From Desulfovibrio sp. (GTDB lineage: Bacteria; Desulfobacterota; Desulfovibrionia; Desulfovibrionales; Desulfovibrionaceae): a stretch of 64,000 nt of DNA. The notes beneath the pieces are model-generated. The model did not search any database. It was not told the origin of the DNA and saw nothing but the letters and a program-made list of their open reading frames with translations. How positions within the stretch are numbered: position 1 is the first letter of the stretch; every line of letters starts with the position of its first letter. Of the stretch, positions 9,347 to 11,294 are shown one piece after another. Position numbers and translations under genes: made by a program. The stretch is taken from assembly GCA_016208105.1 (NCBI GenBank), contig JACQYS010000009.1, positions 124,001 through 188,000 on the forward strand, written 5' to 3'.

Positions 9347-9709
9347 CTATTTTCCCAACCCGGCTTGTTCCTGGCACTCCGTCACTATGGCCTCAAGCTT
9401 TTTCGCTGTCTCGGGATCAATGGCGCTGCCTGAGCGTATGGCTTTATCGAACTTCGCGAACTCATCGTAGGGAATTCGGACCATAACTTTTCTCAGACTG
9501 CACTCGCAGTAGGTCTTGGCCTGGTCCTCCGTGTTCTTCCCCCCCGCCTTGTGGTTCTCGGCCAGCTTCTCCCGGGCCGCTTCCAGGCAGCTTGCCATGA
9601 ATCCTTCTCGGGCGGTCTGCGGATACTCACGGTCCGTGGAAGAGCATCCCCCGGCCAGGCAGAGGCTCCCCCAGGCGATCAGGAGCGCAGGGACTAAACC
9701 GCGCTTCAC
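9347..9709 (-). CDS. small lipoprotein, 120 aa
   Basis: A lipoprotein signal peptide is visible: basic MKRG, a hydrophobic core LVPALLIAWGSLCLAG, and the lipobox LAGGC, with lipidation expected on Cys22. The mature part holds four further cysteines (SCLEA, YCECS, TECQE), suggesting disulfides in the periplasm. The start ATG overlaps the pyrR stop. The family is not recognised, although the helix-rich, cysteine-paired layout is common in periplasmic hypothetical lipoproteins. 9211-9346 between this gene and the convergent TPR gene shows nothing clear. Confidence 0.7.
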   Translation of the reverse strand: MKRGLVPALLIAWGSLCLAGGCSSTDREYPQTAREGFMASCLEAAREKLAENHKAGGKNTEDQAKTYCECSLRKVMVRIPYDEFAKFDKAIRSGSAIDPETAKKLEAIVTECQEQAGLGK

Positions 9710-10254
9710 GCTTCCGCTTCCTCGCCAGCGAGGCGGACCTTGTCCTCTCCGTCCAATTCCTTCACGTACACGTCCACCCGTTCCTCAATGGAGGTAGGCA
9801 GCTGCTTGCCCATGTAGTCGGCCTGGATGGGCAGCTCCCGGTGGCCACGGTCCACCAGAACCAGAAGCTCGACCTTTTTGGGCCTGCCGAAATCCAGGAT
9901 GGCCTCCAGGGCGGCCCGCACTGTGCGTCCGGAATAGAGCACGTCGTCCACGAGGATGAGCTTTCGCCCGTCGATTGCGAAGGGGATCTCAGTCTGGTTT
10001 ATCTTGGGCTGATGAGCCAGATTGGTCCAGTCGTCCCGGTAGAGGTTGATGTCGAGCTTGCCCAATGGCAGCTCGCACCCCAGCCTCGACTCGAGAATCT
10101 TTTTCAAGCGCTGGGCAAGTTCCACCCCTCGGCGCTGAACGCCGATAAGGGCAAGCTCGGTGCATTCACCATGGCGCTCCAAAATTTCGAAGGCCAACCG
10201 TTCCAAGGTGCGCGACATTTCCTTGCCATTCATCACTATTTTCTGACGCTTCAT
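9706..10254 (-). CDS. pyrR: PyrR bifunctional protein: pyr regulator / uracil phosphoribosyltransferase
   Basis: The protein (182 aa) has the type I PRTase PRPP motif LILVDDVLYSGRTVRAAL and the PyrR hallmark segments ALIGVQRRGVELA, KLDINLYRDDW and LVDRGHRELPIQADYMGK. PyrR binds pyr mRNA leaders in response to UMP and has uracil PRTase activity. No pyrimidine biosynthetic gene lies beside it, so any regulation would be in trans. A separate upp/uraA operon is present at about 40.5-42.4 kb. The ATG sits at the conserved N-terminus MKRQKIVMNGKEM. Confidence 0.95.
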   Translation of the reverse strand: MKRQKIVMNGKEMSRTLERLAFEILERHGECTELALIGVQRRGVELAQRLKKILESRLGCELPLGKLDINLYRDDWTNLAHQPKINQTEIPFAIDGRKLILVDDVLYSGRTVRAALEAILDFGRPKKVELLVLVDRGHRELPIQADYMGKQLPTSIEERVDVYVKELDGEDKVRLAGEEAEA

Positions 10255-10396: not shown

Positions 10397-10720
10397 ATGG
10401 TTACAGTTACACAGCCCGCCAAAGACCAGCTCGACGCATATTTCGCTGAAAACGAGAAAGCGCCCATCCGCATCTTTCTTGCCAGCGGTTCCTGCTCGGG
10501 CCCCAAGCTGTCTTTGGCATTGGACGAACCCAAGGACACGGACGACGTCTTTGATACGCAAGGGTATTCCTTCGTTGTGGATAAAGACCTCCTGACCCAG
10601 GCCACCCCGCTTACAGTGGACTTCGCCGGTTGCGGTTTCAGCATTGATTCGAGCCTTGAGCTCGGAGGCGGCGGATGCGGCGGCGGATGCTCCTGCTCCA
10701 GCGGAGGCTGCTCCTCGTAG
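10397..10720 (+). CDS. HesB/IscA-like protein, Cys form, 107 aa
   Basis: HesB/IscA superfamily member (Fe-S or metal-binding beta fold). The start ATG at 10397 is preceded by GGAGG at 10387-10391; an in-frame ATG at 10385 would bury that site in the coding region. Cys33 lies in SGSCSGPKLSLALDE, the position occupied by in-frame UGA in the neighbour gene. Another cysteine is in FAGCGFSI near residue 78. The tail is a Gly/Cys-rich string of LGGGGCGGGCSCSSGGCSS type, which gives many extra thiols. It is not a canonical IscA, which ends CGCGESF. By eye it is roughly 60 % identical to the downstream paralog. Confidence 0.88.
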   Translation: MVTVTQPAKDQLDAYFAENEKAPIRIFLASGSCSGPKLSLALDEPKDTDDVFDTQGYSFVVDKDLLTQATPLTVDFAGCGFSIDSSLELGGGGCGGGCSCSSGGCSS

Positions 10721-10795
10721 ACTGATGCGCTGTGCGGGCGCGCTTTGACTTTTCCATGCGCCTCTGCCAGCCTGAGATCGTACTGCCCACAACCA

Positions 10796-10835
10796 GAGGG
10801 CCCGGTCCGGTTCGAAGCCGGATTCGGGCCCTCTG
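10796..10835 (+). terminator. long GC-rich hairpin downstream of the Cys-form HesB-like gene
   Basis: AGAGGGCCCG at 10796-10805 pairs with CGGGCCCTCT at 10826-10835, and an inner CCGG/CCGG pairing extends the stem. A T-run does not follow directly, so this may be a factor-assisted terminator or an mRNA-stabilising stem separating the two hesB-like units. Confidence 0.5.
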
Positions 10836-10870
10836 CTTGTGTTGCCAGCCTTCATAGGCTTTTCCAGCAT

Positions 10871-10899: not shown

Positions 10900-10931
10900 T
10901 TCGAACGACCCCGACACCTCAGGAGGCTCCA

Positions 10932-11252
10932 ATGTTTACGCTTACCGAAGCTGCGAAAAAGCAGCTTGATTCGTACTTCGCGGATAAGGACAAGTCCCCC
11001 ATCCGCGTGTATCTCTCCTCCGGTGGCTGAGCTGGCCCCCGGCTGGCATTGGCTCTGGATGAGTCAAAAGAAACTGACGATGTGTTCGATACCGATGGCT
11101 ACAAGTTCATTGTCGACAAGGAACTCATGAGCAAGGCCCAGCCCATTACGGTGGACCTCTCCTACATGGGCTTCCAGGTCCATTCCAGCATGGAACTCGG
11201 CGGTGGCGGATGCGGGAGCTCCTGCTCCACCGGCTCCTGTTCCAGCCAGTAG
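10932..11252 (+). CDS. HesB/IscA-like selenoprotein, in-frame UGA (Sec33), 106 aa
   Basis: ATG at 10932 follows AGGAGGCTCCA. The frame runs to TGA at 11028-11030 (codon 33), then continues without break to TAG at 11250-11252. Translation with Sec gives LSSGG-U-AGPRLALALDES, where the Cys paralog just upstream has LASGS-C-SGPKLSLALDEP; codon 33 aligns exactly with Cys33. Both flanks stay homologous over the full length, including the Gly/Cys-rich end LGGGGCGSSCSTGSCSSQ. HesB-like selenoproteins with Sec at this position are known from computational selenoproteome surveys. The alternative is a nonsense mutation (TGC or TGT to TGA) in a dying duplicate. Ordinary gene calling would give only a truncated product or the fragment from about 11049. 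Confidence 0.85.
11028..11047 (+). promoter_or_regulatory. UGA codon and candidate bacterial SECIS hairpin
   Basis: Directly after the UGA, 11031-11037 can pair with 11041-11047 in a seven-pair stem (two G-U pairs) with a CCC loop. Bacterial SECIS elements lie immediately downstream of the UGA inside the coding region. This stem is closer to the UGA and has a smaller loop than the Escherichia coli fdhF type, and I could not compute alternative folds. Confidence 0.4.
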
Positions 11253-11263
11253 CATAGCCTTAC

Positions 11264-11294
11264 AGGGCGGCGGCGCGAGCCGCCGCCCTTTTTT
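11264..11294 (+). terminator. rho-independent terminator after the Sec HesB-like gene
   Basis: AGGGCGGCGGC (11264-11274) pairs with GCCGCCGCCCT (11279-11289) around a GCGA loop, followed by a run of six T. This is a textbook intrinsic terminator and closes the hesB-like unit. Confidence 0.92.

Follow-up and report, generated by a model that had tools for sequence, protein, structure and literature searches.

The window analyzed here, a stretch of 64,000 nucleotides from an assembly assigned to Desulfovibrio sp., harbors a putative IscA/HesB-type selenoprotein gene on its forward strand (10932–11252), comprising 106 codons and ending with the stop codon TAG. Re-reading of the sequence reproduced exactly the frame given in the preliminary description, in which the sole interruption is a TGA at codon 33 (11028–11030, +). 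An AGGAGG ribosome-binding site can be read directly from the sequence five bases 5′ of the ATG (10921–10926, +), and an intrinsic-terminator-like hairpin of 11 pairs (10 of them G-C), followed by a T run, is located 3′ of the gene (11264–11289, +). A search for a sigma-70 consensus promoter for this gene found none. The mechanical list of open reading frames holds only a 67-aa remnant with a TTG start (11049–11252), in line with the earlier expectation that standard gene calling would lose the first 33 codons; a naive annotation would in this way miss one third of a conserved protein.

A paralog belonging to the same family and having Cys at position 33 lies immediately 5′ in the same orientation (10397–10720, +), and the shift-free alignment of the two genes noted in the preliminary description holds as far as the variable tail. 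The two genes are separated by a 17-nt inverted repeat (10788–10841, +; 94% complementarity, arms 20 nt apart), a possible terminator or boundary with no clear T run, which the terminator scan did not flag. With the Cys copy first and this repeat between the genes, separate transcripts for the two are possible. A divergent neighbor on the reverse strand (9706–10254), whose sequence resembles pyrR, lies on the other side of the Cys paralog.

For comparison, a family sample of 140 loci (L021–L160) was assembled, each chosen for a family match; these contain 249 family copies, of which 215 are distinct at the DNA level. Eighty named loci were kept from 241 confirmed stretches found by the peptide pattern GP[RK]LxLALDE, which biases the amino acids of its own stretch and leaves synonymous codon choice unbiased. 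At the aligned codon 33, 104 of the 215 distinct copies have UGA, 94 have Cys, and 17 have Ser, Glu, Ala, Asp or Leu, counts that do not represent independent events, since the loci are best search matches, many of them from related genomes, with possible overlap between the named and unnamed sets. The 17 copies with neither U nor C at this position were excluded from the codon, pair-count, tree and identity comparisons. Close orthologs of the window's gene keep UGA rather than Cys. In addition, nonsynonymous changes per site are fewer than synonymous changes 3′ of the UGA in all five comparisons with near relatives.

The presence of an intact Cys paralog next door, together with a gene that appears broken in the mechanical ORF list, is what would be expected if the UGA were a true stop or a point mutation in a decaying copy of that paralog. 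The probability of this explanation is close to negligible, given 104 distinct copies with UGA at the same codon, the nonsynonymous deficit beyond it, and the better conservation of the Sec copies: across 66 distinct loci, the mean identity is 0.577 for Sec copies and 0.486 for their Cys neighbors, and Sec identity exceeds Cys identity in 1892 of 2145 pairs of loci, which are not independent of one another. A pseudogene, a sequencing error and a chance open frame are likewise ruled out by the conservation of the UGA and the substitution pattern 3′ of it, and because of these same two observations chance is not a serious explanation.

In bacteria, the SECIS element is described as a stem-loop located just 3′ of the UGA, the small apical loop of which contains a G (available text of PMC1088965), and some known bacterial elements deviate from the consensus model (available text of PMC9312934). 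The compact hairpin directly after the UGA that the preliminary description pointed out is present (∼11031–11047), but the hairpin that is constant across the family is a separate, second one at 11051–11065 (+), composed of a five-pair stem (11051–11055 with 11061–11065) and the loop UGGAU (11056–11060). This second stem starts 20 nt past the UGA, its loop has a G within the first two bases, and in the window's copy two extra pairs extend it to 11049–11067; it thereby has the stem-loop position and apical G of a bacterial SECIS. The lowest-energy fold of the region 3′ of the UGA contains both hairpins, with a z-score of −2.25 (6 of 200 shuffled sequences are equally stable). The hairpin touching the UGA is less constant: 69 of the 104 Sec copies have, in their lowest-energy structure, a hairpin of four or more pairs inside the first 17 nt. 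It was set aside as the SECIS in favor of the second stem, which is pairable in all 104.

The same five-pair stem, at the same distance from codon 33, is possible in only 2 of the 94 Cys copies. When the 45 nt after codon 33 are folded, its inner four pairs are part of the lowest-energy structure of 100 of the 104 Sec copies and of none of the 94 Cys copies. Both bases of the outer pair differ among Sec copies (G-C in 87, T-A in 15, and A-T and G-T in one each). Codons 41 (GCT), 42 (CTG) and 44 (GAG), which contribute to the stem around the UGGAY loop, are invariant in the 104 Sec copies, whereas the Cys copies use several synonyms for the same amino acids, with entropies of 1.59, 1.45 and 1.0 bits, respectively. 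These copies provide a clean, natural data set on a bacterial SECIS: the synonymous sites of the stem are fixed in UGA copies and vary freely in the neighboring Cys copies. A SECIS motif search of the window, permitting up to two mismatches, returned 11051–11065 as its sole match; about one match is expected by chance in the window, and the motif match by itself therefore proves nothing.

The window's genome (31 contigs; listed completeness 99.99%) has the full set of genes for Sec utilization. The proteins selA (600 bits; cut-off 268), selB (366 bits; cut-off 242) and selD (334 bits; cut-off 125) are all encoded, and a Sec-specific tRNA (selC) was recovered at 79.4 bits against the Rfam cut-off of 47. 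The tRNA-Sec model also scored one tRNA-Ser of this genome above its cut-off and another just below, and it matched in all 14 control genomes (above the cut-off in five), so it is the ARAGORN call, SeC(tca), that tells this tRNA apart from tRNA-Ser. The selD gene (L018:1104–2153) has a single in-frame TGA of its own, and is likely a second selenoprotein of this genome. With all four genes above their cut-offs and UGA retained by close orthologs, the selenoprotein interpretation of 10932–11252 put forward in the preliminary description is well supported.

The co-occurrence of TGA copies and selB was examined across 199 genomes of the order. The NF038090 family is matched in 194 of 199 genomes, above the cut-off in 183. 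A TGA-bearing match occurs in 176 genomes, 171 of which have selB (at 1e-60) and five of which do not; among the 18 genomes that have the family with no clear TGA copy, selB is found in seven (two of these with weak TGA matches only) and absent from 11. TGA copies thus go together with selB (Fisher p = 4.2e-10, with relatedness among genomes uncorrected), the five genomes lacking a family match (two with selB, three without) having been left out of the test. Of the five TGA-bearing genomes with no selB match, two (G087 and G104) have selA, and completeness in the remaining three is 43, 82, and 77%; the missing selB may therefore be an assembly gap.

Taken alone, the sequence of the gene would also be compatible with decoding of the UGA as another amino acid by near-cognate reading. 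This is very improbable given the complete Sec machinery in the genome, the hairpin and codon fixation specific to UGA copies, and the association of TGA copies with selB. The assignment of the in-frame UGA, placed opposite the Cys of homologs, to selenocysteine is accordingly one that we hold with very little doubt. Decoding of the internal stop as selenocysteine is almost certain, and the product would be the selenium form of an Fe-S carrier-like protein.

The protein, with Sec written as C, matches the NCBIfam model NF038090 (IscA_HesB_Se) over its full length (profile positions 1–101 of 101) at 131.2 bits, where 85 is the cut-off; the Cys paralog scores 122.9 bits. It is an ordinary member of this family, differing from it in no tested feature. 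Against TIGR01911 (HesB_rel_seleno), it reaches only 34.6 bits where the cut-off is 66.35, and it is best viewed as a relative of that group and not a member, sharing the UxGP-type motif (here U33-A-G-P36) reported for HesB-like selenoproteins of TIGR01911 in the available text of a review (PMC13188914). The HesB/IscA-like label of the preliminary description thus stands with a small correction to the name, IscA_HesB_Se being the family that is matched and HesB_rel_seleno the one that is not. Both proteins pass the broader Pfam Fe-S_biosyn model (PF01521; 33.2 bits for the Sec protein, cut-off 26.3). The cut-offs of the IscA, SufA and ErpA equivalog models (TIGR02011, TIGR01997, and NF010147) are missed by the Sec protein (36.1 against 150.6, 33.8 against 136.2, and 29.9 against 117 bits, respectively), and the Cys paralog likewise falls below the cut-offs of TIGR01911 and these three equivalogs.

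HesB-like selenoproteins have already been reported in Desulfovibrio, and the window's gene is a further example of a known protein family. The available text of two papers describes a HesB family protein with an in-frame TGA in Desulfovibrio vulgaris (DVU_1382; PMC1914089) and HesB-like selenoproteins in D. vulgaris and D. desulfuricans (Table 3 of PMC1794560). These resemble the window's protein in both respects, HesB family and in-frame TGA; for DVU_1382 the likeness is drawn from the published description, and the sequence comparison was made with the Sec copies of Nitratidesulfovibrio (L094 and L095). Both species would belong to a genus other than that of the window's organism. The nearest named relative of the window's protein is from Fundidesulfovibrio agrisoli (82% over residues 1–93), and the tree path from the window's protein is 0.14 both to F. 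agrisoli and to one same-genus genome; since the F. agrisoli protein is as close in the tree as that of a same-genus genome, the window's organism is most likely a Fundidesulfovibrio or very near to it.

None of the literature matches listed for NF038090, DVU1382 or the Sec/Cys pair is a functional study of the NF038090 subfamily; in the accessible portion of PMC2682760 selenocysteine occurs only in a reference title, and the accessible portion of PMC12013277 contains no mention of HesB. An archaeal HesB-like selenoprotein has been identified by mutagenesis and 75Se labeling, its function being called unclear, and nitrogen fixation was unimpaired in a disruption mutant, according to an unpublished observation (both from the available text of PMC11097638).

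The predicted fold of the Sec protein is IscA-like. An AlphaFold2 model built from a 14-row alignment has a mean pLDDT of 80, with a tail of very low confidence (residues 91–99 and 101–103 below 50), and its top Foldseek matches are 1x0g, an IscA with a [2Fe-2S] cluster (E = 4.6e-6, TM-score ∼0.6), further IscA entries and SufA. Residue 33 aligns by sequence with the conserved Cys of 1nwb, 2apn, and the E. coli IscA 1s98. The ligands of A-type carriers are three conserved Cys residues, a central one and a C-terminal pair, and the central conserved Cys of IscA is a cluster ligand. The candidate ligand positions in the window's protein are Sec33 in the center and, in the tail, Cys94, which is invariant in all 14 aligned rows, the remaining tail being variable. 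The IscA fold of the model and the Pfam Fe-S_biosyn match are features of A-type Fe-S carriers; the protein resembles IscA, SufA and ErpA in fold and in having Sec33 at the conserved Cys, but differs from them in missing their cut-offs, in bearing Sec for Cys, and in its Cys/Gly/Ser-rich tail.

In the mechanism that we propose from the genes and the RNA element, SelB would deliver Sec-tRNA(Sec) to UGA codon 33 when prompted by the hairpin at 11051–11065, and the resulting Sec33 would replace the central conserved Cys of IscA. Together with Cys94, Cys98, and Cys103 of the Cys-rich C-terminal tail, Sec33 would most likely bind iron or an Fe-S cluster, which would be held through an Fe-Se bond and then passed on. 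We infer that the protein's job is that of an Fe-S carrier. The Cys33 paralog could serve a similar function with no need of selenium.

The main functional rival is that the selenoprotein acts in selenol redox chemistry or metal binding, and not as an Fe-S cluster carrier. The majority of uncharacterized selenoproteins are likely redox proteins, as stated in the available text of a review (PMC13188914); no isc, suf or nif gene was noticed by eye among the ORFs listed around the window; the C-terminal tail is unlike the IscA tail; and C-terminal Cys is absent from two divergent Sec copies of another genome (L165 and L166). The predicted IscA fold, the alignment of residue 33 with the conserved Cys, and the invariance of Cys94 speak for the carrier, and a redox or metal-binding role, while a real possibility, is the less favored one. 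The full statement, namely a functional selenoprotein with an A-type Fe-S carrier fold and a carrier role, is in our judgment reasonably probable.

Less obvious than the selenoprotein itself is its recurrent pairing with a Cys copy. A Sec copy is present in 123 of the 140 loci, and in 83 of these a Cys copy is adjacent, always on the same strand (83/83), with Sec first in 66 pairs and Cys first in 17. The spacing from codon 33 to codon 33 is 342–715 nt in 82 pairs and 2255 nt in one. The Sec copies of the other 40 loci (five of which have a Ser copy) are unpaired, but may have a distant partner, as the loci span ∼1.5 to 3 kb per side and contig ends truncate some of them. We analyzed the phylogeny of 191 proteins with residue 33 removed (93 columns), using a quick tree with no mixture model in which 83 of 188 inner branches are open. 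This tree requires 23 Sec/Cys changes, of which the starred branches demand at least eight, and this lower bound suggests that the Sec/Cys pair is not one ancient split. Either gene conversion between neighbors or repeated duplication would explain the repeated changes.

One possible reading, which we offer tentatively and consider less likely than not to hold in full, is that the Desulfovibrionales maintain paired Sec/Cys A-type carriers, in which an Fe-Se ligand bond would give the Sec copy a distinct cluster chemistry, and the Cys copy would be an isoform that duplication or gene conversion, with a change between Sec and Cys, has regenerated several times and that perhaps serves under selenium shortage. 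The recurrent pair offers a route to testing the effect of selenium at the conserved Cys of an Fe-S carrier-like protein.

Among the neighboring genes, a homolog of the divergent pyrR-like gene occurs in opposite orientation at 50 of the 70 named loci with a Sec copy, while the neighbors on the other side of the Sec gene are conserved in only 8 and 9 of the 70. These figures are directed counts; neighborhood clustering was set aside, as it mixed real genes with overlapping-frame artefacts. The linkage of the pyrR-like gene to the Sec gene has no evident reason.

Several loci have further members of the family. A third tandem paralog with Glu, Asp or Ala at position 33 and the Cys-containing tail kept is found at L034, L036, L037, L038, L040, L041, L044, L085, L086, L087, and L089, and is possibly a form without the central ligand. 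At L094, L095, L096, L100, and L105 (Nitratidesulfovibrio and Desulfovibrio records), a Ser33 copy lies directly 5′ of the Sec gene. A weak relative in genome G142 (L168) carries a TGA in frame at the aligned position but lacks the common SECIS stem; either it belongs to a separate subfamily whose element is different, or it is not a selenoprotein. Genome G187 (L163, L165, and L166) has three extra, strongly diverged Sec copies, which retain the SECIS stem though LALDEP has become LALGEP or LAPGEP; in the two of these that have no C-terminal Cys (L165 and L166), what remains is Sec plus a Cys located two positions N-terminal to it.
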